From positions 248,001 through 312,000 of the forward strand of contig JASCOH010000001.1 of NCBI GenBank assembly GCA_029959295.1: a DNA stretch of 64,000 nt, in the 5' to 3' direction. The position numbers were made by a program, and so were the translations under genes. This DNA is from Flavobacteriaceae bacterium PS02334. Its GTDB lineage: Bacteria > Bacteroidota > Bacteroidia > Flavobacteriales > Flavobacteriaceae. Positions 9,011 to 40,063 of this stretch are shown here, in pieces. The notes beneath the pieces are model-generated. The model did not search any database and was not told where the DNA came from. It saw only the letters and a list, made by a program, of their open reading frames with translations. Every line of letters begins with the position of its first letter. Positions within the stretch are counted from its first letter, which is position 1.

Positions 9011-9041
9011 TTTTCTTTTTCGGGTTACTATTTCACTGATT

Positions 9042-10623: not shown

Positions 10624-10693
10624 TGTTTTTAATTTTTATAAATGGTTTTTAACGATACCATTAGTGCTGAATTTTGCCGATAAAATATGCTGT

Positions 10694-12685: not shown

Positions 12686-13052
12686 GGAACAAATAGGGAT
12701 AATAGATAATAGAAGCACATACTATCGAAACCAGTACCATGAAGGCTGAAGCTCCCGCAGAGATGTCTTTGATAAAACCTATTTTCGGGTGATAATCAGG
12801 ATGGATGAAATCGCATAATTTTTCTACCGCTGTATTTAACGCCTCCACTGCGAGTATCGCTCCGATAGCAGCTAATTGAAACATCCATTCATAACGGTTG
12901 ATACCAAAATAAAATCCTATCACAATGAAAACAGAACAAAGAAAGAACTGAGCCTTCGCAGCATCTTCGGTTGTGAGTAAATACCAAGTTCCTCTTAATG
13001 TAAATACCAAGCTTTTTGCTCTGCCCTTTAAAAAACCTCCTTTACTCTTCAT
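12678..13052 (-). CDS. dgkA: Diacylglycerol kinase (DgkA type)
   Basis: A 124-residue three-helix inner-membrane kinase that phosphorylates diacylglycerol or, in many relatives, undecaprenol. The signature AAIGAILAVEALNTAVEKLCDF (near residues 75-95) contains the conserved Glu and Asn of the active site. KDISAGASAFMVLVSIVCASI follows as the last helix, with the catalytic Asp. It overlaps the LTA-synthase-like gene by 8 bp downstream and the RND adaptor gene by 11 bp upstream, so it is translated from the efflux operon. The adjacent sulfatase would generate diacylglycerol, giving a simple metabolic reason for the pairing. Confidence 0.9.
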   Translation of the reverse strand: MKSKGGFLKGRAKSLVFTLRGTWYLLTTEDAAKAQFFLCSVFIVIGFYFGINRYEWMFQLAAIGAILAVEALNTAVEKLCDFIHPDYHPKIGFIKDISAGASAFMVLVSIVCASIIYYPYLFHD

Positions 13053-14217: not shown

Positions 14218-14223
14218 AAGAAT

Positions 14224-24842: not shown

Positions 24843-24854
24843 AAATAGTAAAGT

Positions 24855-25259
24855 ATGGCTTCAGATAACAAAAACAACGATTTTGAAAAGCCCAATGTTG
24901 ATGAGGAATACCTTATGAACGTCATAAGCGGCGATGAGCCTGTTGTTCCACCGACTATTAACAAAAAGCAGGATGTGCCAAAGGAAACAAAGCCCAGGGA
25001 AAAAGCCCGTAACAGTTCATCAAAGAAAGCGGACTACGAGGAAACATTTTTGGTCAATCGGTTTCCATCGGGGCGTAACGGTAAGGTAGTTTACATACGC
25101 CCTGAATACCACGAAAGATTGCTCCGCATCGTTCAACTGACAAGAGAGGAAAGAACAACGCTCTACTCTTACATTGACAACATTCTTGAACATCATTTCA
25201 GGGAGTACGGGGACGATATTACCGATTATTTCAACGAACATTTTAAACCCATTTTATAA
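24855..25259 (+). CDS. traB: TraB-like DUF3408 protein
   Basis: A 134-residue soluble protein. The N-terminal half is charged and disordered (VPKETKPREKARNSSSKK). The C-terminal half reads VYIRPEYHERLLRIVQLTREERTTLYSYIDNILEHHFREY, the DUF3408 pattern of a ribbon-helix-helix-like fold. Proteins of this family follow traA in Bacteroidetes ICEs and were named TraB in CTnDOT-type elements. DNA binding as a ParA partner is plausible but not shown. The gene starts 12 bp after traA and ends 3 bp before traD. Confidence 0.75.
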   Translation: MASDNKNNDFEKPNVDEEYLMNVISGDEPVVPPTINKKQDVPKETKPREKARNSSSKKADYEETFLVNRFPSGRNGKVVYIRPEYHERLLRIVQLTREERTTLYSYIDNILEHHFREYGDDITDYFNEHFKPIL

Positions 25260-25262
25260 GCT

Positions 25263-25898
25263 ATGGAAACAGTAATTGTGATATGCCTGCTGATAGTCAT
25301 CGCCCTCCTTTTGCAGGATAAGATTGTCATAAAGAAAAGTTCAAAACAAGGACCTCCGCAGAAGAAAGTTAATCCGAACCTGCCTGATATTATGGGGCAA
25401 CCCAAACCCGTAGAACGCCTTTCAATGCCAAACACTGCCAATGAAAGCCAAATTGAGGAACTGGAGATTAACCCTGCTAATTTAGACATTGAATACGACG
25501 AAAATGAAAACGTAAGTATTCAAATTCCGCAGGAAGAGCTGGACGAAGTTTTCAGAAATATGCCTGATTTGGAGGAAGAGGAAGAAGATTGGAACAGGTA
25601 TGGAATATCCGGTGGCGATGATGGTTTTGCCCAAGGGGTTACCTTTGAAGAACTAAGCTCCGTGGGGATGTTGCTCCAAAAAGAAGAATTGGAACCAGCC
25701 CAAAAGGAAACAGCGATAGCGATAGTTCAAAAAATACAGGGAACGGAATTATTCAGCCTATTGGAAAATTCTATGGAAGATGCTTCCCGAAGAATAGCCG
25801 AGCTTTTGGATAGCACCCTTTCATCTGAAACGGAAGACAGTTCTTCAACTTTGCGGAAAAGTGATTTGAGTGATTTTGACATTGGGGAGTTTTTATAG
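25263..25898 (+). CDS. traD: TraD-like acidic conjugation protein
   Basis: A 211-residue protein with one N-terminal membrane segment (VIVICLLIVIALLL, residues 4-17), followed by a very acidic region (QEELDEVFRNMPDLEEEEEDW) and a C-terminal helical part (LLQKEELEPAQKETAIAIVQKIQGTELF). The position after traA and traB matches the small TraD protein of Bacteroidetes ICEs, which has no recognised enzyme domain and is unrelated to F-plasmid TraD. The stop at 25898 is 33 bp from the convergent end of the defence operon. Confidence 0.7.
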   Translation: METVIVICLLIVIALLLQDKIVIKKSSKQGPPQKKVNPNLPDIMGQPKPVERLSMPNTANESQIEELEINPANLDIEYDENENVSIQIPQEELDEVFRNMPDLEEEEEDWNRYGISGGDDGFAQGVTFEELSSVGMLLQKEELEPAQKETAIAIVQKIQGTELFSLLENSMEDASRRIAELLDSTLSSETEDSSSTLRKSDLSDFDIGEFL

Positions 25899-25930: not shown

Positions 25931-26638
25931 TCACACTAAACTATGTTCTAACTTCTCTTTCCATTTCTTCCAGTCTGGCATCATTACCTCCTGTAAATCA
26001 TAGAAAGCCTTTGTATGGTTGTGATGCACTAAATGGCACAATTCATGAACAACTACATACTCAATACTACCTTTAGGAGCTTTGATTAACTCTGGATTTA
26101 GAATAACCTTACCATTTGGCGTACAACTTCCCCAACGTTTTTCCATAGAGCGGATATGTAATTCTGGTTTATTGATTTTGTATTTCTTAAACATGGGATA
26201 CACTTTACTCAATACCTCGTCAAAATGAACGAATGCCTTCTCTCGATACCACTTATCGAGAATATCTTTAACGTTATTTTCCTCTTTATAAAGTACCGTA
26301 ATATGCCCTCTGAAAAGCTTCACCTCATTTCTATTACCTATTTCTACACGTAGCTTATATTGTCTCCCCAAATACAGATGTGTTTCTCCATTGACATATA
26401 TTCGTTCTGGTGTGTATGGATGGTAGGATAAAAATTCACGTTGTTGTTTGATGATCCATGGAGCTTTTTTTTTGATATGCTGTGTAATTTTTTCCACCGC
26501 TGTATCATACGGTGCTATTATTTTTACAATACAATCTGGATAGACTTTAATAGTCAAATTTTTTCTATCCTGAAATTCGAGTCTATATTCAATTGTAGCA
26601 GAACCAAATTGTATCTTATGGATATTTTCCACCATCAT
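25931..26638 (-). CDS. YgjP/WLM-like M48-family metallopeptidase
   Basis: A 235-residue zinc metallopeptidase. The N-terminal beta-rich part (about 1-120) is followed by the conserved RSMEKRWGSCTPNGKVILNP and the zinc site VVVHELCHLVHHNHTKAFY, with HELCH at 198-202 and a downstream His/Asp. Genes of this type (DUF45, YgjP) are commonly the last gene of type I restriction operons, overlapping hsdR by 4 bp as here. Their role is unknown; control of HsdR levels by proteolysis has been proposed for type I systems in general. The gene is the promoter-distal end of the defence operon. Confidence 0.87.
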   Translation of the reverse strand: MMVENIHKIQFGSATIEYRLEFQDRKNLTIKVYPDCIVKIIAPYDTAVEKITQHIKKKAPWIIKQQREFLSYHPYTPERIYVNGETHLYLGRQYKLRVEIGNRNEVKLFRGHITVLYKEENNVKDILDKWYREKAFVHFDEVLSKVYPMFKKYKINKPELHIRSMEKRWGSCTPNGKVILNPELIKAPKGSIEYVVVHELCHLVHHNHTKAFYDLQEVMMPDWKKWKEKLEHSLV

Positions 26639-29600
26639 ACAAACTTGATTTTAGCTACTTTTAATGCCTCTTCTACGGTCTGATCAATATCATCGAAAGA
26701 CAAGTCAATGTCGTATTTGCTTTTCAAATCGAAGATGTAATCATCAATAGCGATGCGAATTTTACCTTCTATATCAGGTTTGTTCTGCCAATCTACCATC
26801 AATTGATCATTTTGATATACTACTGAACGGATTACTTGATCTATACCAAGAGCAAGCTCTGTAGCAACTTCGATTTTATCAGAAAGCACATCTTTAAAAA
26901 TATCAGTTATAAGATTATAAATAGCAATACCTGTATCATTTCCTAGCAAAGCATTTGGAATATTCCCTCGTTCTCCTTTTAAAAATGCCTCCTCATACTC
27001 TTTAGCTTTTTTTAGGAATTCAGCTTCGTCAATTCTTTGCTGATGATATTCTTCAATCGCTTCACGAATGAGTTTAGACAGCTTTTTATAAAAGATGGGA
27101 TCCTCATTCATTTTGATATTGATGGCTCGAATAGTTCTGCTGGCGATATGATCCGCTTTAGCAGATTTACTGCTTAATTTCTCAACTTCAGCTTCTCGTT
27201 GTTCTTTGTCAAAAATATCGACTAAATCCGTTATCCTAAGCACTTCGCCCTCTGTCGTGATATGCTTGTCAATTAATTTTTGTACCTGTGGCTCATATTC
27301 CTTGTAGTCAATATCATCAGAAAATCTCCTTTTGACAGAAACACGCAATGCCAAAAAGAATTTCAAATCAGACTTATACTTGTCAATTTGTTTTTCAGGG
27401 GTGTTATTAGCAAAATCAATACTGGATAATGCCAGTTTTAGTAAACGTGCAAAAGCAGATACTTTCTCATAAAACTGATGCCGGATAGCTTCATCGCTAA
27501 GCAATTCTTCATAAGCTGGTTCATCATATTTGTTTTTAATAGTTTTGAAAATATCCCAAACCTCGGAATGTGCCTGAGGTAATTTTTTGATTTCTTCTAC
27601 TATATTTGTCCAGCTTCCGACTAAATCTTCTGCATCAAACATATTATCACCGGAATATGTCTGAATGGCGTTGTCCAAGTTCTCCAAATTACCAAAATAG
27701 TCTATTATATAACCATAATCCTTTCCAGGATACACACGATTTACACGAGCAATAGCTTGTAACAAAGTATGTTCTTTTAATTGACGGGTCAAATACAACG
27801 CAATATTTCTTGGAGCATCAAAACCCGTCAGTAGTTTGTCCACCACTATGATAATTTCAGGAAAGTCTTGTTTTTTAAACGCACCGATTACAGACTTTTC
27901 ATATTTTTCCTGTGTGCCGTATTTATCCATTCGGACATTCCAGAATTTTTTCACTTTATCGTCCGATACATCAAAGGCGTCTTCTTCGCCTTCCCGAGTG
28001 TCGGGAGCAGACATGATTACTTCAGAGCTTACTTTGCCAATTTCGTCCAAATACTCTTTGTATTTAATTGCTGTGGCTTTATTGGGTGTTACCAGCTGCC
28101 CTTTAAAACCAGTGCCTTGAAAATTATCCACATAATGTTCAGTGATATCCCAGGCTCTGGCGTAAATAACCTGATCGGCTTTATTAAGGATATTTTTCGA
28201 ACTGTATTTTCTCTTCAAAGCCGCTTTTCCGTAGGGTGTAAGTGGTTCCGAAACCTTGTCAAAATAATTATCCAACGGTTTTTCATTAACCTCAATAAGG
28301 TTATGCCTGCCTTCATATAACAAAGGGACAACGGCTCCGTCTTCTACAGCATCCGTAATCGAATACACATCGATAATGCCTCCAAACTTACTCGCTGTGC
28401 TTTTTTCTTTTTTCAACAATGGCGTCCCAGTAAATGCGATAAAACAGGCATTTGGAAATACTTTCTGCATTTTGACATTGAAAGAACCGTATTGTGAACG
28501 GTGTCCTTCGTCTATCAAAATGTAAATTTCTGAGCTATCAAATGATTGAGGGCTTGCATTAACAGCAGCTTCAAATTTATGAATTAGGGTGGTGATGACT
28601 GCGTCGCCGGATTCTGTAATCAATTTTAAAAGGCTGGTATCCTTCTTTAATTTTTCCTGTTCGTTATCATCCAGTATTTCCCCTCTGAGTTTTTTAGCTA
28701 TTTCCTTTGATGCTCCTTTATCAGCATTAACTACTGGCACATGACATTTTTTGAACGTTTCCGTTATCTGGTCATCCAGATCAATACGATCTGTTACCAA
28801 AAGTATCTTAGGATTTCTAATATTCGGATGTGAAGCAATTAATTGAGCCAGCATCACCATAGTCAAAGATTTTCCGCTTCCTTGTGTATGCCAAATCACA
28901 CCACCTTCGTGATTACCTTTGGTATCGGTTTTTAGGATTTTGGTCAACGTGTTTTTAATCGCAAAATACTGCTGGTATCGGGCTACTTTTTTGATACCGT
29001 CATCATATAAAATGAAATCATATATAATTTCCAATAATCGTTTGGGATGGCAAAAACTAAAGAGTAGTTTATCCTGCGTAGTAATAACCTGTTCCTCTTG
29101 TTCTAAATTTTCAAAATATTGCCAGACCTTTCTAAATCGTTCTTTAAATAATACTGTACGCTCATTTTCTGGTAAAGCTTTGTGCTTTAGAATGCTGATT
29201 TTATTTTCCCAAAAACGTTCTTCTTCTTTAGTACGGAACATTTCTTTCCAAACGCCCCAAAATTCTTTGCTGGTAGCGGTTGTACCATATTTTGCTTCAT
29301 TAGAGGCCAAAGCAAATGTAAGATTGGAGTACAAATACAAGCTTCGAATTCCGTCTTCTTGCTGGTTTCTTAGATGCTGTTCAATGGCTTTTTCTACAGG
29401 CTCTTTTATTTTAGGCGACTTACATTCAATAATGACCATCGGAATACCATTAATAAATAGTACAATATCTGGTCGGTAATGATCGGCTCTATCTGAACGT
29501 AGTACACTATATTCTTCAGTTATGTGATAGATGTTGTTTTCCGGCTTTTCCCAGTCAATATAACGAAAAGAGAAACTTTTTTTATCACCTAAAACCGTTT

Positions 29601-29925
29601 GGTCAAAACTTTTCCCTAATGTGATGAGTTCGTAATAGGCCTTATTCGCTGCTATAAAACCATCTTGTACTGGTAAATCCCTGATTGCAAGTATTGCATT
29701 GTTGATGTTAGATTCGGAAAAAGCAAATTCCTTTTGCTTATAATCAATTTTATTAATCTTCTGTACTTGGCTTTTTAGAATATCTTCTAATAGCACATTC
29801 GAGCTTCTTCCTCCACGGGCTGCTAAAGCCTCCTCTGGCGATAGGTATTTCCAGCCCATATTCATCAGCAATTTTAACGCCGGAATTTGGGAAATATGGT
29901 CTTCTATGAATGAGGGTGTGTCCAT
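26635..29925 (-). CDS. hsdR: Type I restriction enzyme R subunit
   Basis: A 1,096-residue motor and nuclease subunit that translocates and cuts unmodified DNA as part of an R2M2S complex. The N-terminal nuclease domain has the PD-(D/E)xK residues D153 and E167-C-K169 (IIECKSPK). The SF2 helicase part has Walker A TQGSGKS (about 347-353), motif II ILIDEGHRSQ and motif VI-like QAIARVNRVYPGKDYG. A long helical C-terminal part binds the MTase core. It lies far from hsdM and hsdS within the operon, with five CBASS, GGDEF and pAgo genes between hsdS and hsdR. The gap to the upstream gene is 5 bp. All catalytic motifs are intact. Confidence 0.93.
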   Translation of the reverse strand: MDTPSFIEDHISQIPALKLLMNMGWKYLSPEEALAARGGRSSNVLLEDILKSQVQKINKIDYKQKEFAFSESNINNAILAIRDLPVQDGFIAANKAYYELITLGKSFDQTVLGDKKSFSFRYIDWEKPENNIYHITEEYSVLRSDRADHYRPDIVLFINGIPMVIIECKSPKIKEPVEKAIEQHLRNQQEDGIRSLYLYSNLTFALASNEAKYGTTATSKEFWGVWKEMFRTKEEERFWENKISILKHKALPENERTVLFKERFRKVWQYFENLEQEEQVITTQDKLLFSFCHPKRLLEIIYDFILYDDGIKKVARYQQYFAIKNTLTKILKTDTKGNHEGGVIWHTQGSGKSLTMVMLAQLIASHPNIRNPKILLVTDRIDLDDQITETFKKCHVPVVNADKGASKEIAKKLRGEILDDNEQEKLKKDTSLLKLITESGDAVITTLIHKFEAAVNASPQSFDSSEIYILIDEGHRSQYGSFNVKMQKVFPNACFIAFTGTPLLKKEKSTASKFGGIIDVYSITDAVEDGAVVPLLYEGRHNLIEVNEKPLDNYFDKVSEPLTPYGKAALKRKYSSKNILNKADQVIYARAWDITEHYVDNFQGTGFKGQLVTPNKATAIKYKEYLDEIGKVSSEVIMSAPDTREGEEDAFDVSDDKVKKFWNVRMDKYGTQEKYEKSVIGAFKKQDFPEIIIVVDKLLTGFDAPRNIALYLTRQLKEHTLLQAIARVNRVYPGKDYGYIIDYFGNLENLDNAIQTYSGDNMFDAEDLVGSWTNIVEEIKKLPQAHSEVWDIFKTIKNKYDEPAYEELLSDEAIRHQFYEKVSAFARLLKLALSSIDFANNTPEKQIDKYKSDLKFFLALRVSVKRRFSDDIDYKEYEPQVQKLIDKHITTEGEVLRITDLVDIFDKEQREAEVEKLSSKSAKADHIASRTIRAINIKMNEDPIFYKKLSKLIREAIEEYHQQRIDEAEFLKKAKEYEEAFLKGERGNIPNALLGNDTGIAIYNLITDIFKDVLSDKIEVATELALGIDQVIRSVVYQNDQLMVDWQNKPDIEGKIRIAIDDYIFDLKSKYDIDLSFDDIDQTVEEALKVAKIKFV

Positions 29926-29930
29926 GATAC

Positions 29931-30830
29931 TTATATCTTCTTTGTAGAATTTATAATTAGTTCACTTGGATAGCCAAGCATTTTCATAATTAATTCTTGT
30001 GATTTGTTTTTAAAGGCAGGTATTAAATTGCCTATAAGACTAAGCCCCAACGCTCCAAAAATTGTAAAAGCGTAGTTGTATGTTTCAATAAATTGAATTG
30101 TTTCAGGACTGTACTTTGGAAGCTTAAGCAATAGATAAATTAACCCAGCAAATAAAACTGCTTGAATTATCCATGATAAGTATTTTATGCGTCTAATAAA
30201 TTTGGTATTAAAGCTCCTAAACAAGTTTAATTCACTATTATCAGGTAATTCCTTTAGTAACAGTATTGAGTCATAAGCTTTTATAGAACACAAAATTTGA
30301 AAATCGCTACGACTTTCAAATAATTTAATATTCTCAGTCAACTTTTTATAGGTGAAGTTTACGAACTCGTTTGTAATTAGTGATTGATTGCTTATTTGAA
30401 GAAACACGAATACAATCTCTGGTAAATTACTTGTGCTATAATAATTTTCGTTTAAAATGTTTTCAAAAGTTATTGTTATTGCATTTCTGTTTCTGATAGA
30501 AACTATATAGTTTACCCAATCCTTGTTTGTACTAAATATTGAAACACCTACAATAAACGAGAACATAAGAAAATCATCATTGACAAAAGGAGCTGGAGAG
30601 TCTTTACTCGGTTTACTTTTACATTTTTTTTCAAAATATTTTTCAAAATCTACTTTCTTGTTTTTCTGAATAGCATTTACAATTTCAAAATAATACTCCT
30701 CAGACTCATTCAAATCTTGACTTTCAGGTACAATAATAGTCTTACCTAACAACAAATTATTAAATGCTGTAAGTTTATGGCTTTCAGTGACTCTTGATAG
30801 ATAACCTGTTTTTTCTTCTAAAGGAACCAT
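29931..30830 (-). CDS. Two-TM membrane protein paired with the Argonaute (possible pAgo effector)
   Basis: A 299-residue protein. The first 210 residues are soluble and mostly helical; two membrane helices lie at the C-terminal end (YLSWIIQAVLFAGLIYLLL, then AFTIFGALGLSLIGNLI), with a short basic tail. The start overlaps the pAgo stop by 13 bp, so the pair is translationally coupled. Catalytically inactive long-B pAgos are known to use associated membrane proteins (BPAM type), nucleases or Sir2 proteins as abortive-infection effectors. Gene pairing, size and the two helices fit a BPAM-like role. I cannot confirm sequence homology without a search. A structural membrane anchor is the alternative. 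Confidence 0.65.
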   Translation of the reverse strand: MVPLEEKTGYLSRVTESHKLTAFNNLLLGKTIIVPESQDLNESEEYYFEIVNAIQKNKKVDFEKYFEKKCKSKPSKDSPAPFVNDDFLMFSFIVGVSIFSTNKDWVNYIVSIRNRNAITITFENILNENYYSTSNLPEIVFVFLQISNQSLITNEFVNFTYKKLTENIKLFESRSDFQILCSIKAYDSILLLKELPDNSELNLFRSFNTKFIRRIKYLSWIIQAVLFAGLIYLLLKLPKYSPETIQFIETYNYAFTIFGALGLSLIGNLIPAFKNKSQELIMKMLGYPSELIINSTKKI

Positions 30831-33103
30831 TTCTTTCTTTTTAATCCATAGTTTAAGCTATCCGCATCCCAGCCAGGAACACTTCTCATTTTGCCGAGCA
30901 AGCGTGAAATAAGGTTGGAATACTTCATTGTTGCGGGTTCTTCTCCTGGTAAAAAACTACGCCAAGACAGGTAAGTGAATGAGAATATTTGCTGTGTGAT
31001 ATAACTCAAATCATGAAATATCAAATCATTCAATCCATTATTGTCATAATTGCCTTGTGGGGTGCGTATTTTAATTTGAATGGGCTTGCTCATCCCTTGC
31101 CTAGATGTTTTCAATTCATTCGGTCCCAACATTTGAACAATACAAGTTTCTGAATCCAAAAAAACATTACTTGCTCGGCTGGGGATAAATGCACCGATAA
31201 CATTGCTGTTACCATACTTTTGTACACCCTGTTGAGTGGTGTCAAAAATCATATTTGGGTGCGATTGGCTAATTGTAACAAAAGCAAATTTTATCTTATA
31301 CTGATTAATTTCTTTGACCAGTTGACTGATTACATCGAACTCTGTGTTTTTGATAGGTTTGAATATGTGAAAAATTAGACGTACAGTATCACCTTCCGCC
31401 CAACCATATTCTGATGATAGCCTTTCGATGGAATTTTTTAGGCTTTTAAGCAACTCCGAAAAGTAATTTTCAAAAGCTACATCTTTTACTTTATCTGATA
31501 ATAGATACTGACCATCTCCCGAAAGAAAGGTTGTGATACCAACCACTCTGTTTTGTTCGGATCCTGCGTATTGATTTTTCCTGAGCCAACTATGCCCAAT
31601 ACCAATTACTATTTCTCTATCGACCGAACGCTGCGAAGGCAAAACCCAAGGAATACCGCCAAGCTTTGCATAAATTTGCAATGCAAGTGAATTTAAAATA
31701 TATTCATTATGGCTTTTTACAACCTCTGCAGTAACATATTGAACCGGAATTTCAAGAGCAAGTAATTTTGCTTTTATAGCATAATATGGATTATTTCGGT
31801 CATCATATCTTTTAAATGCTGCTGGGATTTCAATAATAGCTAAATCTGGTTTACTTTCATCATCACTTCTAATTGCATTTAGATATTCATTTATAGTATA
31901 ATCCTGAATTTCCTTAATGTTAAATACTACATCTTGCAAATCGTATTTCTTTTGCAGTCCTTTTTGGAAATATCTGGATTGCGGAATACCATCTTTAAGA
32001 CTATAAAGGAACTTTGTGAAATTGCCACGGGTATTCTTGTTACAGATAGAAAGGATGTTTGGTGATTTGATATCAAATGTACTGCTGTCATAAGGGCCAT
32101 AATTAGACAGACCTGCATCTGGGTTATAATTATTGGTCTTTGTAACAGCATGGTCAAAAATAAACGTAGGATTTTTTAGCTCCATCGTATTTGAAACAGT
32201 GATCGGTTTGCTATTTACCGTAAAACAAAAACTGTCTTTATTCTGGAATAAAACGAGTTTCCCGTTTTCACTAAATAAGTGTTCAGCTATTTTAATAATT
32301 TCGGTATAGAGATTTTTAGGATTGTAGATATCAGATCGCTTCCCCTCAATGATGTTCAATATTTCATCACTTTTATCTGGTGATGTAGCAAAACTCAGGT
32401 ACTTCCCGATGTTGAATTTTGTTTTTCGAATTAGCAATTCACTTAATTCAAATTCTTTCAAACCTTCATTGGTTTCAACTTTTGCCTTGTTTCCTATTAC
32501 TTCTTTAAGAACACCAACAAATTCTTCATTGGGAGCAAGAATATTTGTTAATCCAGACAAGGTTTCTGCATGCAATACATCAAGACCAATCAATTCAAAT
32601 CCTTCTGAATGTAACTCAGCACAACTAATGTCAAAAATCCAGTTACGTTTGATATTGACCAAGAAACCGAAACGTTTTTTTCCATTGATCTCGGTCAAAC
32701 GCAATTGGACTTCAATGAGCTTTTTATAGCCTATCCTGTCTTTTAAACTATCTGGCAAGGCATTTCTAATGATATCGTCTTTACCCGAAAAGAAACGGAA
32801 AGGATAAAAATCTACGGGAGTGTATCTTGGGAAGCGGTCTTTGAAAGTTCTGAAAAAGATATGCTTTATCAATGAGGCTGTGATCTGATGATCCCTATAT
32901 GTGCTTCGTTCTGTTAATATACCAATTGGAGTGCTGTCATCACTGTCCTTGTTGGAAATGTATATAGAATCACCGTTTCTAAAAAAAGAATGCGTAGCAT
33001 TGTACAAACCTCTTAATTCAGTAAGACGTTCATCGCTATATAATTCAGTATTGATTTGATATTTTTCAAACTCAATATTTATCGGAAAGTAATTAAGCTG
33101 CAT
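30818..33103 (-). CDS. Long prokaryotic Argonaute with degenerate PIWI site
   Basis: A 761-residue pAgo. The N-terminal half (about 1-330) is the N/PAZ-like region. The family landmark GPYDSSTFD lies at about 336-344. The MID domain (about 370-490) holds NPYYAIKAKLLALEIPVQYV with Y440/441, K444 and Q455, and K480 in YAKLGGIPWVLP, matching the Y-K-Q-K guide-5'-phosphate pocket. The PIWI domain begins REIVIGIGHSW, where the first catalytic Asp is replaced by H504. The usual second Asp region reads RLIFHIFKPIK without Asp. It should therefore bind guide and target but not cut. The C-terminal end is hydrophobic (KKWFL). It resembles the long-B group and is coupled to a two-TM protein downstream. 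Confidence 0.82.
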   Translation of the reverse strand: MQLNYFPINIEFEKYQINTELYSDERLTELRGLYNATHSFFRNGDSIYISNKDSDDSTPIGILTERSTYRDHQITASLIKHIFFRTFKDRFPRYTPVDFYPFRFFSGKDDIIRNALPDSLKDRIGYKKLIEVQLRLTEINGKKRFGFLVNIKRNWIFDISCAELHSEGFELIGLDVLHAETLSGLTNILAPNEEFVGVLKEVIGNKAKVETNEGLKEFELSELLIRKTKFNIGKYLSFATSPDKSDEILNIIEGKRSDIYNPKNLYTEIIKIAEHLFSENGKLVLFQNKDSFCFTVNSKPITVSNTMELKNPTFIFDHAVTKTNNYNPDAGLSNYGPYDSSTFDIKSPNILSICNKNTRGNFTKFLYSLKDGIPQSRYFQKGLQKKYDLQDVVFNIKEIQDYTINEYLNAIRSDDESKPDLAIIEIPAAFKRYDDRNNPYYAIKAKLLALEIPVQYVTAEVVKSHNEYILNSLALQIYAKLGGIPWVLPSQRSVDREIVIGIGHSWLRKNQYAGSEQNRVVGITTFLSGDGQYLLSDKVKDVAFENYFSELLKSLKNSIERLSSEYGWAEGDTVRLIFHIFKPIKNTEFDVISQLVKEINQYKIKFAFVTISQSHPNMIFDTTQQGVQKYGNSNVIGAFIPSRASNVFLDSETCIVQMLGPNELKTSRQGMSKPIQIKIRTPQGNYDNNGLNDLIFHDLSYITQQIFSFTYLSWRSFLPGEEPATMKYSNLISRLLGKMRSVPGWDADSLNYGLKRKKWFL

Positions 33104-33197
33104 ATTCTTTTTAAAATTTTATTAGTTAAGGATTGATGTGCCTGATCTATTTCAATCAATTGATAAGCTATAATTCTAATTCTTTCTTAGGTTTACC
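33104..33197 (-). other. 94-bp gap in the defence operon
   Basis: This is the only sizeable intergenic space in the operon, between the GGDEF gene and the pAgo gene. No TAnnTTTG promoter or clear terminator hairpin was seen. The sequence is very AT-rich. It may mark the junction between two ancestral modules. Confidence 0.4.
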
Positions 33198-33956
33198 TTA
33201 AACAATCGACTTTGTGTTATTTTTACCTGAAATCTTTTTGGCTTCGTTTAGAGCTTCGATTACCCGATTAGTTATAGCAGTGTAATCATCTCCCTTCTTT
33301 AATTCAGTAACACCACAGCAAACAGTCAATTGATGGCTGACTCCTTCTATAGAAAACAAGTTTTTCTCAATCAATTTCCTTTTTCTTTCTGCTGCCTGAT
33401 AAGCCTGACCTAAACTTGTTTCAGTAGCAACTACAAGAAATTCATCACCTCTATTAAAATAACGAAATGTTTCGTCTGTAGCCCTTTTATCGTTGCCCAA
33501 TAATTCGCCAACTTTTTTCAGAATTTGATCGGCAACATTAAAACCAACTGTTGTATTAAAGCTCTTAAAGTCATCTATATCTAATATAACAATTGATAAA
33601 GCATCTCCTTTAGTTTTGTGTTCATGAATCTTTTGATTTAAATATTCATCGAGTGCTTTATGATTTCTTAGTCCAGTGAGTTCATCTGTATGGTTATTAT
33701 TTAGGACTTCTCGGATTTTATTATTGAATAGATAACTAACGATGAGCGTAGTTACAGTTATTAATAGAATAGATGCAATTAGTATCCAATATATTGAAAT
33801 ACTATGCTTGGTTATTAATAGACCATTAACATATGGAATCCATCTTGATGGAATAAGTAAAATCAAGAAAACGAACAACCATTTCAATATATCGTAGATG
33901 CCTTTAGACAAAACATCATCTTTGAATTTCTTAATTGATTTCTTAATATATCCCAT
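33198..33956 (-). CDS. Two-TM GGDEF-domain protein
   Basis: A 252-residue inner-membrane protein. Two helices (about 24-42, ILKWLFVFLILLIPSRW, and 54-77) precede a cytoplasmic GGDEF domain starting at DELTGLRNHKALDEYL (91-106). The metal-binding motif is DIDDF at 126-130, and the signature is RGDEF at 169-173, with Arg in place of the first Gly. The fold should be that of a nucleotide cyclase, normally making c-di-GMP. The RGDEF change may alter or abolish activity, and no c-di-GMP effector is seen nearby. GGDEF proteins are uncommon in Bacteroidetes. It sits 4 bp after capV and before pAgo, so a defence-signalling role is likely but unproven. Homology to minimal CRISPR polymerases (mCpol) should be considered. 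Confidence 0.78.
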   Translation of the reverse strand: MGYIKKSIKKFKDDVLSKGIYDILKWLFVFLILLIPSRWIPYVNGLLITKHSISIYWILIASILLITVTTLIVSYLFNNKIREVLNNNHTDELTGLRNHKALDEYLNQKIHEHKTKGDALSIVILDIDDFKSFNTTVGFNVADQILKKVGELLGNDKRATDETFRYFNRGDEFLVVATETSLGQAYQAAERKRKLIEKNLFSIEGVSHQLTVCCGVTELKKGDDYTAITNRVIEALNEAKKISGKNNTKSIV

Positions 33957-33960
33957 ATTC

Positions 33961-34983
33961 TCAGTTAATATTTAATAATCTGAAGATTTCATCCTTATTC
34001 TCTTTGTAAACATTAATGGCTCTTTCCTCTAACTCTTTCAATTTGGTTTGATTGGTTTCATCCATTTCAATGTTTTCTACCTCGGTTTTAAATAATGTAT
34101 TAAGTCTTAAATATGTAAAATTATCAGGCTCTTGTCTATCAATACCATTTTTTAATAAACTTAAAATGTTTTCCACCTGTTGAGATTGGCCTTGCATAAA
34201 CAACTCAATAATTCTTTTTCGTTTATTGTTTATCCAATACCAAATTCCAAACTTATTTTCTTTATTAGCCTCTAGAAATATTCTTTCACCTGTGCCAATT
34301 GATAACAAATTAATATCAATTAATTCTTTTTTGAAAGCTTTCTGAGCTTCAATCAAAGCAATCAGACTTGGATTGTTAGCCCAAACACCGCCATCTACTT
34401 TATTTTTAAACTGCAAAACATCTCCTTTGACATCTCTATACATATCTCCAGAATAAGGATCAAAATATGTTGGAGCTGATGATGTAGATAAAGCTGCATC
34501 TAATAATGGAAGATTAGGGTCACGCGTAAATCTATGATGGTAAAGACTTTTTAGAACGGATGGTTTTCCAATACTTAAATCGTAAATTGACACACCCACA
34601 GGGATTTTACAATCTTTAAGTTTAGGAATAGAAGTATTATGATATTTTTTGAACACATCTTCTAATAGTTTTTTTAAACTACTTCTATCATGTGATGAGT
34701 GATTTATGCATTTTAAAAATCCTTTTTTATTACCAAAAATACTGTGAGCATTTTCAAAGTATAATTTTTTGATTTCTTCCGCAGGGATACCCAACGATAA
34801 AGCCAATGCTAAAATTCCACCAGTAGAGGTGCCAAAAATCAAATCTACATTTTGGTAAATCTGCCAATTTTTACTCCCTTTATTCCTTAAGTCCTTTTCT
34901 ATTTCTGTTAAGATGACAGCGGGAAAAATACCCCTGATGCCTCCACCGTCTAAACTTAGAACTTTGAATTTTTTTTCAGTCAT
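33961..34983 (-). CDS. capV: Patatin-like phospholipase, CapV-type CBASS effector
   Basis: A 340-residue phospholipase. The oxyanion hole is DGGGIRG (12-18), the nucleophile S53 lies in GTSTG (51-55), and the catalytic Asp is D197 in VDGGVWANNP. In CBASS, CapV-type enzymes are switched on by the cyclic nucleotide made by the CD-NTase and destroy the inner membrane, killing the infected cell before phage release. No transmembrane segment is present. The start overlaps the hsdS stop by 4 bp, and the CD-NTase and E2 genes are two and three places upstream, so the assignment as CBASS effector rests on both motif and context. Related patatins outside CBASS exist, but none would explain the neighbours. 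Confidence 0.88.
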   Translation of the reverse strand: MTEKKFKVLSLDGGGIRGIFPAVILTEIEKDLRNKGSKNWQIYQNVDLIFGTSTGGILALALSLGIPAEEIKKLYFENAHSIFGNKKGFLKCINHSSHDRSSLKKLLEDVFKKYHNTSIPKLKDCKIPVGVSIYDLSIGKPSVLKSLYHHRFTRDPNLPLLDAALSTSSAPTYFDPYSGDMYRDVKGDVLQFKNKVDGGVWANNPSLIALIEAQKAFKKELIDINLLSIGTGERIFLEANKENKFGIWYWINNKRKRIIELFMQGQSQQVENILSLLKNGIDRQEPDNFTYLRLNTLFKTEVENIEMDETNQTKLKELEERAINVYKENKDEIFRLLNIN

Positions 34984-36206
34984 ACAATTCTGGTTTTTCC
35001 GGTTAATAATTGCTGCATCAAACCTTTTTTCTGCAATTTTAGGTTGCTGAGTTTTTGCTGGTATTGCTGTAGTTCTTTAGTAGCGGTGTCAAGAACATCT
35101 ACCAACCTAATTTGCTCCCCCATTGATGGTACAGGGATTTTTAATTTTAGAAACTCGGTCTGTCCTAATGTTTTATTTCTACCAGCACCTCCTGGCGAAG
35201 CTAATTCTAGTAAATATTTCCCTTTAAGGGACTTGAAAAAATATAGTAAATAATCTAAATTTAGAATTCCCGCTTTTGGCCTGTACATAGGGAATCTATG
35301 GGAAGCTATAAAACCTATATCTGCATCCGTTGTTTTACCAATTGCTCGTTCCCATGCGAAAACAATATTAACAATGAAACAATTAGGCTCAATCCAAAAG
35401 ACGGATTTATTTCCTAAACTTTTCCCAGTTACAGCCTCTTTATAGAATAAACCTTTGGCATGAGATCGAATTCCTATTTGTTTATATAGGGTATTTTCTT
35501 CAGGAGTAAATGAGTTTTTAATTCGATCTACAATCTGCATTATTGGCTTTTGATTTGGCTTTTTATCGTTATCCATAAACAACTTATTCGCCAATGCCTT
35601 ATTCCTTTTTTTCAATTTTTCGATGATGACATTGGTTTCTTGAATAGCTTTATCCCAAGTAGATAATACTTTGGCGATTTTTTGTTGCTCAAGAAGTGGT
35701 GGAATTGGTATGATTAGTTTTATCAATTGAGATTTAGATAAATTAAATCTTGTTGATCCTTGAGCCAAAACATCTAATTCTTTTCTTATGTTCTCACCTC
35801 TTAATAAATAGCTTGAAAATAAAGGATCCAAAACATTGTTATTCTTCAATCTAAATCCAAAACAGAAACTATTCAAATACATAATGTCTACTTCATCTAA
35901 CAACACTGATGACATTCCTACTTCTTCCGCTGTTTCCGATGAAGTTGTAAAAAAAATATCTCCATATTTTACTTTATGCTGTTTTTCACTTTCCTTAATA
36001 TCTACATAATCCATAAAATTGATATCAATCTTACTATTTTGGAATATGTTTTTATAGGGTATATATGGATAGCCTTTGCCAAAGTCTTCTTTGTTTTTTC
36101 CAGATAAACCTGAAAATGTATCCCCCAATTCCCTCAACTTCTTCACTTCCCAGTCAATGGGAATTTTTCCAATGGTTGTATTTTTATATTGAGTTGTCTG
36201 CTTCAT
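34980..36206 (-). CDS. hsdS: Type I restriction specificity subunit (two TRDs)
   Basis: About 408 residues from the ATG at 36206 (MKQTTQYKNTTIGKIPIDWE). The longer frame to 36251 runs deeper into the E2 gene and lacks support. The first target-recognition domain (about 15-150) ends in LLEQQKIAKVLSTWDKAIQE, the first conserved helical spacer. The second (about 205-360) ends in GEQIRLVDVLDTATKELQQYQQKLSNL, the second spacer. HsdS decides the bipartite DNA target of the MTase and nuclease. It overlaps the E2 stop by 23 bp and capV by 4 bp, so it is embedded between two CBASS genes, an unusual order. Confidence 0.9.
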   Translation of the reverse strand: MKQTTQYKNTTIGKIPIDWEVKKLRELGDTFSGLSGKNKEDFGKGYPYIPYKNIFQNSKIDINFMDYVDIKESEKQHKVKYGDIFFTTSSETAEEVGMSSVLLDEVDIMYLNSFCFGFRLKNNNVLDPLFSSYLLRGENIRKELDVLAQGSTRFNLSKSQLIKLIIPIPPLLEQQKIAKVLSTWDKAIQETNVIIEKLKKRNKALANKLFMDNDKKPNQKPIMQIVDRIKNSFTPEENTLYKQIGIRSHAKGLFYKEAVTGKSLGNKSVFWIEPNCFIVNIVFAWERAIGKTTDADIGFIASHRFPMYRPKAGILNLDYLLYFFKSLKGKYLLELASPGGAGRNKTLGQTEFLKLKIPVPSMGEQIRLVDVLDTATKELQQYQQKLSNLKLQKKGLMQQLLTGKTRIV

Positions 36207-36645
36207 TTTTAATAATATCTTTTTTAGTTTCGCCGTGAACTGTCCCGCCACCTAACCATTCACCTGTAATTAACCATAATTCGTAATGATAAAGCCATTC
36301 AATGGCCCAAACCATTACTGTTTGAGCTATCGATTTAGAGCTATTCCATTCCTTCCAATCTGGATAAAACAAGCACAAACGTTGCGTTTTATGGTCATAT
36401 ACGTGGGGTAAGGATTTTTTACCTTCAAATAATTTTAAAGGTGTCGGTTCTAATACATATACATTAGGGTTTTTACCTAATTCATAAATAAGTTTCACTT
36501 TATAATCATCTCCTATGGGTGAAGATTTTAATGTGCCAATCCATTGGAGTGTTTTACTATTAACAATCTTGGATTCACCAAAACTAAAATCTCTTTTCAG
36601 CCCAGCTAATTGATTATAAAGTGTTAACTTTTTCTTTTTAATCAT
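36184..36645 (-). CDS. CBASS E2-like protein (type II-short)
   Basis: About 153 residues from the ATG at 36645, which overlaps the CD-NTase stop by 8 bp; the frame start at 36666 is less likely. Landmarks are PHVYDHKTQRLCLFYPDWKEW, with the presumed catalytic cysteine in LCLFYP, and VWAIEWLYHYELWLITGEWLGGGTVH, a pattern typical of E2-like proteins of type II-short CBASS. In those systems the E2 protein acts without an E1 partner to modify or prime the CD-NTase. Here no Cap2-type E1 or JAB protease is adjacent, which fits the short type. The small size, no TM segment and direct coupling to the CD-NTase support the call. Confidence 0.83.
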   Translation of the reverse strand: MIKKKKLTLYNQLAGLKRDFSFGESKIVNSKTLQWIGTLKSSPIGDDYKVKLIYELGKNPNVYVLEPTPLKLFEGKKSLPHVYDHKTQRLCLFYPDWKEWNSSKSIAQTVMVWAIEWLYHYELWLITGEWLGGGTVHGETKKDIIKNEADNSI

Positions 36646-37915
36646 TCCCGTGAAAATTATGAGCATTCACTTTAGCAACGTTTGTAAGACCAGCTACTGC
36701 CGATCCAACTACACCTGCTTTACGATCTACATGATTATTGCCAGCTTCTGTTAGCGACCTCATTCTATTACCAACATCCGAAAAAGTTTTAGTTACAGGC
36801 TCGTTACCAAAAGATTTTTTTAATGATTCTGAAAGATTGATTCGATTAAATGGAGATTGAAATATTCCGAAATCGACCTTCAATTGCTTCAGCCAGTCAT
36901 TGAAAAATGCTTCTCTTTTCGATCCAGGTAATGTCCATCGATCAGCAAAATTCTCAGTTTCATTGACTGGATTTGAAACCCACTTTACATATCTATTCAA
37001 ATCATAATCGTACTTTTCCTCAATATGATTCCCCATATTATTAACAATACTGAGTAAAGCATCCGTAATATTATCTTCACCATCGTATGCCTTTGCTGCT
37101 AAAGTTGTGATGATACATGAAATCGGTTTCTCCTTTTTATCATCATCATTATAATCTTTAAACATTATATCACGATGTCTCTTTAACAGTTGCACAGCTC
37201 TCTGGAGGGGCAATCTGTCCTTTTGATACTTTGGCGTTGGGTTTACAGACTCGTTAAGGGAAAACATTTTTGTACGTCTTCCTTTAATATCGTCTGCGAT
37301 GGTCATAAACCACTTAGCATAACCAAACGGATTACTTTGAAGCCATTCACTAGGATCTGTGGAAATTTCATACTCTGGTAATCTTTCATTGTCGGTTATA
37401 CTGAGAACCAAATCTTCAATATTCTGGTCTTTAAGATTCGAATATGCCTTTTCTAAAATAACAGAATGTCCGTTAGTATTAATTGCTGGCAAAATATCCA
37501 TATGGTATCGCTCATTAGGCGAACCATTTTCCCTATACTTCAACGTCCAACATCTTCGCCCTTCTTCATCAAGGATAGACTCGTATTTCTTGTGTTTTAT
37601 CAATTGCTCTCCAACAATTTCCTTTACATCTTTCTGAGTCCAATTTTGTCTTTTTCCATTCAATTCACATACAATATCAAGATCCATATCTCCATCAGGA
37701 TCAATTGTCTGAATAATGGTCCCAATAATGAAGGAACCTTGTGGACTAATTACTGGATTGTATGGAGACAGTTTTGATTCATCATTGGTAAGCCAATTAC
37801 CCACAGCTTTATAGCTACGCACAGCAGCCTCATGCTGAGCTTCGTTAATACTTAAGTTTTCTCCTAAAGCATCTAATATATCTTCTAATTCAGTTTTTTG
37901 TTCAGTTGTGATCAT
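36638..37915 (-). CDS. cdn: CD-NTase (CBASS cyclic-oligonucleotide synthase)
   Basis: A 425-residue nucleotidyltransferase that makes the cyclic di- or trinucleotide alarm in CBASS. The polymerase-beta-like core has GS at 60-61 (SPQGSFIIGT), the metal-binding pair D78 and D80 in DGDMDLDIV, and the third carboxylate D140 in RYHMDILPA, so the active site looks intact. The helical C-terminal domain carries PLQRAVQLLKRHRDIMF. The protein ends in VNAHNFHGND, a tail whose Asn/Gly residues could be the target of the E2-like partner. The clade and product (cGAMP, cUA, trinucleotide) cannot be told from motifs. It starts 2 bp after the hsdM stop. Confidence 0.9.
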   Translation of the reverse strand: MITTEQKTELEDILDALGENLSINEAQHEAAVRSYKAVGNWLTNDESKLSPYNPVISPQGSFIIGTIIQTIDPDGDMDLDIVCELNGKRQNWTQKDVKEIVGEQLIKHKKYESILDEEGRRCWTLKYRENGSPNERYHMDILPAINTNGHSVILEKAYSNLKDQNIEDLVLSITDNERLPEYEISTDPSEWLQSNPFGYAKWFMTIADDIKGRRTKMFSLNESVNPTPKYQKDRLPLQRAVQLLKRHRDIMFKDYNDDDKKEKPISCIITTLAAKAYDGEDNITDALLSIVNNMGNHIEEKYDYDLNRYVKWVSNPVNETENFADRWTLPGSKREAFFNDWLKQLKVDFGIFQSPFNRINLSESLKKSFGNEPVTKTFSDVGNRMRSLTEAGNNHVDRKAGVVGSAVAGLTNVAKVNAHNFHGND

Positions 37916-37917
37916 AG

Positions 37918-39447
37918 TTATAAAAGGTTTAGTTCTTCTAAATATTTATTCATTTCGCTCTGTACTTCTTTAAGTTCCTTTTCAATCTTTACAATCTCTT
38001 CTTGAACAGCCTTGATATCCACTTCTTCCTCTTCTTCAAACGTATCTACATAACGGGGAATATTTAGATTGAAGTCATTTTCCTTAATCTCGTTATACGG
38101 TGCTCTGTAAGCATATTTATCTTCAATAACACTACCCTCGTCAGTACTAAGAGGAGCACTGACTTTAAAAGCTTTGTATGTTTCAACAATGTGTTTTATA
38201 TCTATATCTCTCAGTTTATTTTGATTTTTACCTGTTTCAAAGCCTTTGCTCGCATCAATGAACAGCACATCTTTATTGCTACCTTTTGCTCTATTAAAAA
38301 CCAAAATTGCTGCAGGGATCCCAGTCCCGAAAAATAAGTTGGCAGGTAAACCAATGACAGCTTCTAATAAATTTTCTTCAATCAACTGCTGACGGATTTT
38401 ACCTTCGCTGCTTCCCCTGAACAATACACCATGCGGCATAATCACTCCAACACGACCAATATCTTCATATGTGGTTTCTATCATGTGACTAATAAAAGCG
38501 TAATCACCCTTGCTTTTTGGAGGAACACCCCGATGAAAGCGGTTGTACTGATCAGTAACAGCATTTTCTGCTCCCCATTTATCTAATGAAAAAGGTGGAT
38601 TTGCAGCTACAATATTAAACTTCATCAATTCATCCCCTTCCAAAAGGCGTGGGTTATTTATGGTGTCTCCCCATTCAATGGTAGCGTTATCAATCTCGTG
38701 CAGAAACATATTCATACGAGCTAAGGCCCAAGTGCTTCCGTTTACTTCCTGTCCATATAAAGAAAAGTTACCAGATCCTACTTCTTTGGATAGCTTAATC
38801 AATAAGGATCCAGAACCGCAGGTTGGGTCATTTAATCTATTACCCGCTTCAGGAGCAAGGAGCTGCGCTAATAGGGTAGAAACCTCACTTGGGGTATAAA
38901 ATTCTCCTGATTTTTTTCCTTCATCACCCGCAAACATTGAAATCAGGTACTCATAAGAATCACCGATCACATCATTACCTTCCAAATGCGAAGGCTGTAA
39001 ATCCATTTCAGAAAAATCGACAAGCAAATTTTTCAGTCTTCTGTTACGGTCTTTTGTTTGCCCAAGATTTGATTCTGAATTGAACGTAATATTTCTGAAA
39101 ACACCTGCTAATTTCAAGCGGTTGGAATCTTCAATTTGTTCCAGAACACGGTCGATTAAATCACCTAATTGTACATCATTACGATTTTCAAATAAATAAT
39201 CGAAAGTTGCATTTTCAGGAAGCTTAAATCGTTCATTTGCCAAAGCCCGTTCTATACGCACATTATCACCTTTGTACTTTTCGGTGTAAAATGCTTTCTT
39301 GTCTTTCCATACATCAGAAACATACTTTACAAAAAGCATCGTCAGCACATAATCTTTATACTGTCCGCTACTTAACACTCCTCTGAATGAATCACAGGCT
39401 TTCCATACTATATTGTTAATCTCTTTTTGAGTGAGCTTCTTTTCCAT
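37918..39447 (-). CDS. hsdM: Type I restriction modification methyltransferase M subunit
   Basis: A 509-residue adenine-N6 methyltransferase. The N-terminal helical domain (about 1-150) is followed by GEFYTPSEVSTLL, the SAM-binding motif DPTCGSGSLL (207-216) and the catalytic NPPF (283-286). A C-terminal coiled coil (EEIVKIEKELKEVQSEMNKYLEEL) contacts HsdS. It methylates the HsdS-defined site to protect host DNA and forms the core to which HsdR binds. It follows the half-size S gene by 1 bp and precedes the CD-NTase by 2 bp. Every motif looks functional. Confidence 0.94.
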   Translation of the reverse strand: MEKKLTQKEINNIVWKACDSFRGVLSSGQYKDYVLTMLFVKYVSDVWKDKKAFYTEKYKGDNVRIERALANERFKLPENATFDYLFENRNDVQLGDLIDRVLEQIEDSNRLKLAGVFRNITFNSESNLGQTKDRNRRLKNLLVDFSEMDLQPSHLEGNDVIGDSYEYLISMFAGDEGKKSGEFYTPSEVSTLLAQLLAPEAGNRLNDPTCGSGSLLIKLSKEVGSGNFSLYGQEVNGSTWALARMNMFLHEIDNATIEWGDTINNPRLLEGDELMKFNIVAANPPFSLDKWGAENAVTDQYNRFHRGVPPKSKGDYAFISHMIETTYEDIGRVGVIMPHGVLFRGSSEGKIRQQLIEENLLEAVIGLPANLFFGTGIPAAILVFNRAKGSNKDVLFIDASKGFETGKNQNKLRDIDIKHIVETYKAFKVSAPLSTDEGSVIEDKYAYRAPYNEIKENDFNLNIPRYVDTFEEEEEVDIKAVQEEIVKIEKELKEVQSEMNKYLEELNLL

Positions 39448-39448
39448 T

Positions 39449-40000
39449 TTATTTTAAAATATCGTTTATTACTGCTTGAAATAATTTATTTTTTTCGTCT
39501 ATCAACCTTCCTGTCAAAGCTAATTCTGCTCGATGCAAATCACTTAGCTTGGCTATCTTTTTTTGAACTTCTAATGGAGGAAGAGGGATTTCTACTGCTT
39601 CGAGTTCATTTTTGCGAATAGAAGGAATAGAGCTACCTGCACCAAGGGACTGAAAAAATGATTGATACTTAGTCGAATTAAAAATCGTAACCAAATAGTC
39701 TGAATCAACAAGATCAGACTTCGGCTTGATAACAAAAAAGATAGAGGAAGCAATTGCTTTTCCTGTATCAACACTGTATTTCCAAGCAAAATTTCGCATC
39801 CCTTTCCCCACAAATAAAACATCTCCCTCTTCTAAAAGATGGCTTTTGGACTTTTCTGTTATTTCAACCCATCCGTCTCCATTACCATCAAACAGCCCAA
39901 AATCATTAAAATTTTTAGCCTGAAGATAGATAACTGCACCTTTTTCTTTTGGCTTGTCATAAAAGCCAAATTGCAAATGGGATATATCTTTTAATTGCAT
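39449..40000 (-). CDS. Single-TRD type I specificity-like subunit (half HsdS)
   Basis: About 183 residues from the ATG at 40000 (MQLKDISHLQFGFYDKPKEK). The frame extends to 40060, but that would place the start inside the promoter, so the downstream ATG is chosen. There is one target-recognition domain, followed by the conserved segment EIPLPPLEVQKKIAKLSDLHRAELALTGRLIDEKN, the spacer helix of HsdS. Half-size S proteins can dimerise to recognise a palindromic-type target, or associate with a full HsdS. It is the promoter-proximal gene of the whole defence operon and lies 1 bp from hsdM. The second, full-length hsdS is four genes away. Confidence 0.85.
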   Translation of the reverse strand: MQLKDISHLQFGFYDKPKEKGAVIYLQAKNFNDFGLFDGNGDGWVEITEKSKSHLLEEGDVLFVGKGMRNFAWKYSVDTGKAIASSIFFVIKPKSDLVDSDYLVTIFNSTKYQSFFQSLGAGSSIPSIRKNELEAVEIPLPPLEVQKKIAKLSDLHRAELALTGRLIDEKNKLFQAVINDILK

Positions 40001-40031
40001 TTTCAATTTTGTATTCCGTTTCAAATTTAAG

Positions 40032-40063
40032 CAAATATACAGGATAATATTTAAATACACAAA
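40032..40063 (-). promoter_or_regulatory. Promoter of the defence operon
   Basis: On the minus strand TTTG (40060-40063) is followed after 20 bp by TATATTTG (40032-40039). This is a full match to the Bacteroidetes consensus TTTG-N19-21-TAnnTTTG. Transcription should start near 40025, giving a leader of about 25 bases to the ATG at 40000. It fixes the start of the half-size S gene and is the only good promoter I found in the operon. Confidence 0.8.

Follow-up and report, generated by a model that had tools for sequence, protein, structure and literature searches.

Why would genes of a type I restriction-modification (RM) system, a cyclic oligonucleotide-based antiphage signalling system (CBASS) and an Argonaute pair share one operon, and do their products act together? 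The question is raised by the minus strand of positions 25931-40060 in a stretch of 64,000 nucleotides (hereafter, the window) from Flavobacteriaceae bacterium PS02334 (contig JASCOH010000001.1, positions 248,001 to 312,000). In the order of transcription, this eleven-gene operon encodes a half-size HsdS (S'), HsdM, a cGAS/DncV-like nucleotidyltransferase (CD-NTase), an E2-like protein, HsdS, the phospholipase CapV, a transmembrane GGDEF protein, a long prokaryotic Argonaute (pAgo), its membrane partner, HsdR and a YgjP-like metallopeptidase; all eleven reading frames are open. The operon is probably one instance of a recurring type I RM chassis that carries exchangeable guest defence genes in two fixed places, slot A between HsdM and HsdS and slot B between HsdS and HsdR. 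The newest part of the locus is the transmembrane GGDEF protein, an enzyme type not usually tied to immunity.

The chassis order (half-HsdS, HsdM, slot A, HsdS, slot B, HsdR, YgjP) is kept in 14 of 14 complete loci. An HsdR search (E <= 1e-200) gave matches in 16 of the 395 genomes of a draw from the phylum, at 17 places: one is the window, one (genome G531) was dropped at a contig end, and 15 were taken. With the window and two loci found through the GGDEF protein (L002 and L003), the set comprises 18 loci, of which 14 run completely from S' to YgjP; the incomplete ones are L109-L112 (L112 through the choice of stretch). Open reading frames (ORFs) were called in the loci with a simple length-based picker and no gene finder. 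A half-size HsdS stands ahead of HsdM in all complete loci (with a 72-aa ORF between them in L106), and YgjP follows HsdR in 18/18 loci. Slot A is occupied in 13 of the 14 complete loci (it is empty in L113) and slot B in all of them. Layout, gene families, recurrence, swaps of cargo and mosaicism are seen directly in these loci.

The first gene of the operon was not singled out in an earlier annotation of this DNA made from its sequence (the original prediction), and it turns out to be the half-size HsdS. An end-to-end alignment of the 14 S' proteins shows a single recognition domain and a single helical repeat in each. The S' of the window is 34 and 45% identical to those of L002 and L003, vs. 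66 and 67% for HsdM, a low identity that would fit a specificity subunit. Its true start is most likely the ATG at 40000, giving about 183 aa. An engineered half-HsdS is described to dimerise into an active methyltransferase, with restriction, on a palindromic target (PMC6158711); by analogy, the chassis may encode two specificities.

The cargo of the slots is diverse. Outside the window, the 17 loci contain 82 cargo ORFs (60 aa or longer). PADLOC was applied to 30 of these, and Pfam to 27 of the 30. A PADLOC match is present in 23/30, for some to candidate (PDC) models only; the other seven match none of its models (among them, proteins of 1271 aa in L118 and 660 aa in L114). CBASS-type cyclases occur in 8 of the 14 complete loci (the window, L113 and L116 by PADLOC; L002, L003, L083, L084 and L117 by BLAST), and SAVED-HNH proteins in L002 (PADLOC/Pfam) and in L083 and L084 (BLAST). 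In the window, L002 and L003, the CBASS is divided by hsdS: slot A has the cyclase, and slot B has CapV. L083 and L084 have the cyclase together with SAVED-HNH in slot A, and L117 has everything in slot B. Other cargo comprises a Pycsar cyclase with a 2TM effector (L106), Gabija A and B (L111), Shedu (L113), Fic proteins (L083, L084, L106, L114 and L116), a helicase matching the C3a193 and DpdF models (L107), a Tin model match (L118), Bro-N proteins (PDC-S13, in L108 and L111), RhuM (L109) and an AAA protein (L110).

Slot proteins with neither a PADLOC nor a Pfam match were noted at L118 11726-15541, L114 13769-15751, L115 8705-10741 and L117 8363-9157; these are candidates for defence genes so far unrecognised. 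One of these loci, L114, is a second copy of the chassis in the genome of the window itself (C55:350500-370400), with a Fic protein and the unknown protein of 660 aa as cargo; there, HsdR is spread over two frames and HsdS is short.

The nearest relatives of the operon show how its guests have moved. A scan of genome contigs for the GGDEF protein gave 69 loci, some with short flanks, and just two, L002 (a Bacteroidia metagenome-assembled genome) and L003 (Sphingobacterium yanglingense), hold other genes of the window. Both share the order S'-M-..-CDN-E2-..-S-..-CapV-..-GGDEF-..-R-YgjP (CDN for CD-NTase). The interleaving of CBASS and pAgo genes with hsd genes was correctly read in the original prediction; it is one case of the chassis, and the order shared with L002 and L003 is not confined to this genome. 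In L003, a metallophosphoesterase and two further genes lie between E2 and HsdS, and GGDEF directly adjoins HsdR. In L002, a SAVED-HNH effector lies ahead of CapV and a second cyclase, in two overlapping frames, behind it; GGDEF and HsdR are separated by two genes. The amino acid identities of the window with L002/L003 differ strongly from gene to gene (in %: HsdM 66/67, CDN 51/55, E2 40/74, CapV 55/88, GGDEF 71/53, HsdR 53/62). CapV and E2 are nearer to L003 and GGDEF is nearer to L002; therefore, the guests were exchanged singly. Similar guests can also switch slots: L003 has a metallophosphoesterase in slot A, and a similar one occupies slot B in L002 and L115 (81% identity between the latter two).

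Such gene-by-gene mosaicism, and the presence of a similar metallophosphoesterase in either slot, would also be produced by a chance packing of selfish modules, with insertions between hsd genes tolerated and spread along with the RM system. The slots are, however, occupied in nearly all complete loci, and the guests lie mostly in the direction of the operon with short gaps, as co-expression needs; we therefore hold this explanation to be unlikely.

The original prediction went further and proposed a fixed relay from restriction to CBASS to Argonaute, in which the fragments left by restriction would signal to the CD-NTase or serve as guides for the pAgo, with all parts acting in sequence. The tight gene spacing, the interleaving of CBASS with hsd genes in three loci and the mention of HsdS among the genes of pAgo operons (PMC6299218) agree with it. 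On the other hand, L002 and L003 lack the pAgo pair, the same slots hold unrelated cargo in other loci and, on a Runella plasmid treated below, a CapV CBASS occurs with the GGDEF gene and without annotated hsd genes. With cargo that varies and a pAgo pair missing from the closest loci, we reject the relay as the principal explanation and give it very little credence.

Gabija, Shedu and Pycsar are systems that work alone. Their presence as cargo speaks against the idea that the guests are a back-up triggered when a phage disables the restriction enzyme, so that nesting ties the guard to the guarded system. The idea agrees with a nesting that is kept though the cargo varies, and PrrC and PARIS are described as sensors of anti-restriction proteins (PMC12657218). 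We consider it improbable.

We thus prefer the chassis with exchangeable guests, against which several points have to be weighed. The loci were chosen by similarity of HsdR or GGDEF, with no other type I operons for comparison, so that the rule may fail in other type I families. The PADLOC scan covered 30 of the 82 cargo ORFs, leaving 52. Finally, a nesting conserved across distant genomes may mean a true coupling to restriction.

With a chassis of this kind, the working of the locus can be pictured by analogy, the functions of the individual modules being those presumed from their known families. The restriction system would cut unmethylated DNA; the CD-NTase, tuned by the E2 protein, would make a cyclic nucleotide by which the phospholipase CapV is opened; and pAgo and membrane partner together would form a separate, guide-dependent module. 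The modules would be independent of each other, with guests swapped gene by gene in evolution, each acting by its own mechanism, and a common promoter would let them be co-expressed and inherited together.

The coordinates and supporting matches are collected in Table 1. Ten of the eleven family assignments are confirmed by PADLOC or Pfam and that of YgjP by Pfam; the defence families first proposed (HsdM/S/R, CBASS and the pAgo pair) are real. With hsdM, hsdS and hsdR, the methylase, specificity and translocase-nuclease domains of a type I RM system are all present. The expected motifs were found in HsdM, HsdR, CD-NTase, CapV, GGDEF and YgjP. Type II-short CBASS comprises a CD-NTase, an E2 without E1/JAB and an effector; the operon has the CD-NTase, the E2 and the effector, and nothing further among its eleven genes. 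The nearest solved chains to the CD-NTase are 9woo ("Cyclic GMP-AMP synthase") and SmCdnG. Solved relatives of the pAgo, by homology, are 23wq (EcAgo) and 5awh/6d8a; its membrane partner has a PADLOC model but no Pfam match. The pair may be a long-B pAgo module, a class marked by an inactive PIWI domain and a partner effector.

The genes are closely packed, with junctions, in the order of transcription, of +1, +2, -29, -68, -4, +4, +94, -13, +5 and -4 bp (negative values are overlaps). These measurements match exactly the original description of eleven same-strand genes that overlap or lie at most 5 bp apart, save one 94-bp gap. With the ATG at 36206 as the start of HsdS, the -68 junction shrinks to about -23. 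A promoter motif of the Bacteroidetes type (TTTG-N20-TATATTTG) lies upstream of S' and occurs nowhere else on the minus strand between 24 and 42 kb. In that 18-kb strand, 0.58-0.64 matches are expected by chance; the motif that had been proposed as the one consensus promoter is therefore present, but not significant on its own, because about 0.6 matches would occur anyway. Its informative part is its position, about 30 bases ahead of the likely S' start. In L003, a similar motif occurs at the same position upstream of S' (1226-1259); in L002, none was found in the stretch inspected. A sigma-70 scan gave 57 sites vs. 64 +/- 7 in shuffles, and terminator-like sites number 18 vs. 11.9 +/- 3.1. 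None of the minus-strand terminator-like sites falls in the 94-bp gap, and a terminator-like stem of 12 pairs lies inside the gene at 29931-30830. We infer a single transcript for all eleven genes, though internal promoters or terminators may exist.

Table 1. Features of the operon, in the order of transcription (positions in the window)
Feature	Coordinates	Strand	Basis or remark
Promoter motif, Bacteroidetes type	40032..40063	-	TTTG-N20-TATATTTG, upstream of first gene
S', half-size HsdS, one recognition domain	39449..40060	-	PADLOC specificity-subunit and mad5 models; counterpart in 14/14 complete loci
HsdM methyltransferase	37918..39447	-	Pfam N6_Mtase 2.3e-100, HsdM_N; NPPF and DPTCGSG motifs
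CD-NTase (CBASS cyclase), slot A	36638..37915	-	PADLOC Cyclase 2.9e-122; GS and DxD motifs
E2-like CBASS protein, slot A	36184..36666	-	PADLOC E2 3.4e-50; single cysteine C98
HsdS, full size, two recognition domains	34980..36251	-	Pfam Methylase_S, two stretches; likely start ATG 36206
CapV patatin phospholipase, slot B	33961..34983	-	PADLOC Effector/Phospholipase 1.2e-94; GTSTG and DGG motifs
Transmembrane GGDEF protein, slot B	33198..33956	-	Pfam GGDEF 1.5e-29; without PADLOC model
94-bp gap, GGDEF to pAgo	33104..33197		Possible insertion seam; in L003, HsdR directly follows GGDEF
Long pAgo, slot B	30818..33103	-	PADLOC pAgo_II 2.7e-268
Membrane partner of pAgo, slot B	29931..30830	-	PADLOC Aga_Unknown 1.2e-127
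HsdR translocase-nuclease	26635..29925	-	Pfam HSDR_N, SWI2_SNF2, T1R_D3-like; D-ECK, GSGKS and DEGH motifs
YgjP-like zinc metallopeptidase, last chassis gene	25931..26638	-	Pfam YgjP-like 5.9e-54; HELCH

How far is such an arrangement already known? The original prediction held it to be undescribed, which is too broad. Defence genes inside type I RM operons are in print (PMC12255303, PMC11411939); the searches made of open-access papers gave none with the exact gene set, and none describing a two-slot chassis with S' or a GGDEF protein as an accessory to CBASS. The RRDM island of E. coli E2348/69 (RptR-hsdM-hsdS-darTG2-hsdR-M48; PMC12255303) is similar: its defence module lies between hsdS and hsdR, and its last gene encodes a metallopeptidase (M48-type in RRDM); the operon likewise has defence genes between hsd genes and a metallopeptidase gene at its end. 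It differs from RRDM, as described there, in that RRDM has one cargo module, against two occupied slots here, and in having S' as its first gene; also, no RptR-like gene is present among the eleven (by gene families; the RptR sequence was not searched). TgvAB in the type I RM of V. cholerae VPI-2 and RloF of Campylobacter are likewise embedded between hsd genes (PMC11411939); TgvAB is described there as a modification-dependent restriction pair, whereas the guests here are CBASS and pAgo. The cyclase, E2 and phospholipase belong to the PADLOC families of type II-short CBASS, in contrast to which they here lie on either side of hsdS and have a GGDEF gene without a PADLOC model in their company. 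The pAgo and its partner resemble the known pair of a long pAgo with a membrane protein (PADLOC pAgo_II and Aga_Unknown), but lie inside an hsd operon; HsdS has already been noted in pAgo operons (PMC6299218).

The GGDEF gene was named in the original prediction, and its linkage to CBASS was not followed there. All four full-length relatives (window included) lie near CapV, CD-NTase and E2, three inside the chassis and one outside; four is a lower bound, the pattern scan having missed the one outside. This chassis-free relative (43% identity) was found by a plasmid search on Runella slithyformis pRUNSL02, where CapV is about 1.7 kb away from the GGDEF gene, and an E2-like protein and two nucleotidyltransferases are encoded close by. 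The annotation of the 27 kb viewed of that plasmid includes no hsd gene; a large "N-6 DNA methylase" adjoins the locus, with no BLAST match to proteins of the window. The GGDEF protein would belong to the CBASS guest rather than to the RM chassis. Of 25 plasmid records with a GGDEF match, ten were listed, and five of these were examined: that of Runella has CBASS, three have none annotated and one is unannotated. The interval between CapV and GGDEF in Runella (L120, 11427-12979) holds an XRE-type regulator and a 169-aa hypothetical protein, by eye like a regulator-PIN pair.

Close relatives of the GGDEF protein are few. They occur in 1/299 genomes of a family draw and 1/395 of the phylum draw (both the window itself) and in 2/201 of the order of genome G679 (L003 and a 26% relative in another context); there are 0/146 in the order of genome G409, an empty result that by itself shows nothing. 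The scan of viral contigs gave one distant match for GGDEF and no match for CD-NTase. We had expected the GGDEF family as a whole to be rare in the phylum, wrongly (see below); in the 16 listed genomes of the same genus, family or order in the phylum draw, there is none apart from the window's own. PF00990 has a sole match in each genome of the window, L003 and L002. In these three genomes, no EAL and no PilZ match was found (control genomes were positive; HD-GYP was not searched). The 26% relative is a membrane GGDEF protein in L131 (genome G703, 8708-14117), in a cluster of another kind that also encodes a small membrane protein and, judged by eye, has genes resembling those of adenylosuccinate synthase and dNTPase.

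In the GGDEF protein, whose membrane segments were judged by eye, D126, N134 and D143 align with the metal Asp and the guanine-reading Asn and Asp of PleD and are invariant in the four relatives; the RxxD site is kept in 4/4. The canonical GG(D/E)EF signature is absent, so that diguanylate cyclase activity is uncertain. The AlphaFold model (mean pLDDT 57.8) is too poor to use. In Hypr-type GGDEF enzymes, the second guanine position is a Ser; D143 stands at that position as an Asp, and a Hypr-type enzyme making cyclic GMP-AMP (cGAMP) is disfavoured. An Asn/Ser rule for guanine reading is described (PMC12657218).

What could such a protein do beside CapV? Tentatively, the transmembrane GGDEF cyclase may be an unrecognised accessory of CapV-CBASS, travelling with it inside type I RM operons and alone, whose cyclic di-GMP (c-di-GMP, or cGG) would serve solely as a decoy saturating Tad2-like sponges in hosts without an EAL/PilZ network; we regard this as possible, though far from established. 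The protein would keep a c-di-GMP pool, steadied by the RxxD site, that fills the cyclic-dinucleotide sponges of phages and so leaves the CBASS signal free to reach CapV. The phage sponge Tad2 is described to bind cGG strongly, and its capture of 3'3'-cGAMP, the driver of membrane destruction, can be compromised by cGG-saturated pockets (PMC12043709).

Several points weigh against the decoy. The strong ligands of the main sponge, Acb2, as described, do not include cGG (PMC12043709), and therefore the decoy would serve against some sponges only. Phage sponge action in these hosts is an assumption. The linkage with CBASS rests on four loci, and in Runella the GGDEF gene is on the opposite strand, 1.7 kb away. 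The family is common in the phylum (81/148 genomes of the phylum draw), and the absence of a c-di-GMP network covers EAL and PilZ, with HD-GYP outside the search. Lastly, the signature is R/KGDEF after a two-residue insert, departing from the active consensus.

This unusual signature, the RxxD kept in 4/4 relatives and the adjacency of GGDEF and CapV in the window and L003 would also suit a direct action on CapV, with c-di-GMP as a second activator or inhibitor, or with the protein as an inactive nucleotide-binding sensor using RxxD. CapV is, however, described as activated by 3'3'-cGAMP (PMC9813507, PMC12043709), CapV and GGDEF have no common history between the loci, and the other catalytic residues of the GGDEF protein are kept. 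We find a direct action doubtful.

The decoy has its closest parallel in Panoptes (PMC12657218), with a GGDEF-related polymerase fold, a cyclic dinucleotide, the company of CBASS and a decoy logic; the likeness is one of proposed working. Panoptes, as described, pairs the enzyme mCpol with the membrane effector OptE, whereas here a membrane-bound true PF00990 GGDEF stands with CapV instead of OptE, and no OptE-like partner was assigned. GGDEF domains also occur, rarely, as nucleotide generators in vWA-MoxR conflict systems, for which, in contrast, that account, as far as available, describes no link to CBASS or CapV (PMC7159879).

The operon is antisense between a ParA-like gene with two small genes (24075-25898) and DUF4134 with TraG (40260 onward). 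The host element is conjugative, with genes for a coupling protein, RteC, TraM and an integrase; the relaxase and other tra labels were given by eye. Two transfer-gene groups of this element flank the operon (4162-24842 and 40260-63926), and the element has further cargo at 10694-18564: a sulfatase, an HlyD-type efflux protein and a fusion of an AcrB-type efflux protein with an outer-membrane efflux domain. The operon is not a known plasmid block: among 72,556 plasmid records, there was one 2% match, outside the operon. Elsewhere, on Haliscomenobacter hydrossis pHALHY02 (L125, 9001-18094), a CD-NTase relative (37%) was seen at a distance of a few kb from the Cmr genes of a type III-B CRISPR system.

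For the family of operons described here, the occupancy of slots A and B provides a searchable rule for candidate defence genes. And, if the decoy proposed for the GGDEF protein is true, c-di-GMP, usually a lifestyle signal, would be a possible shield for immune signalling.

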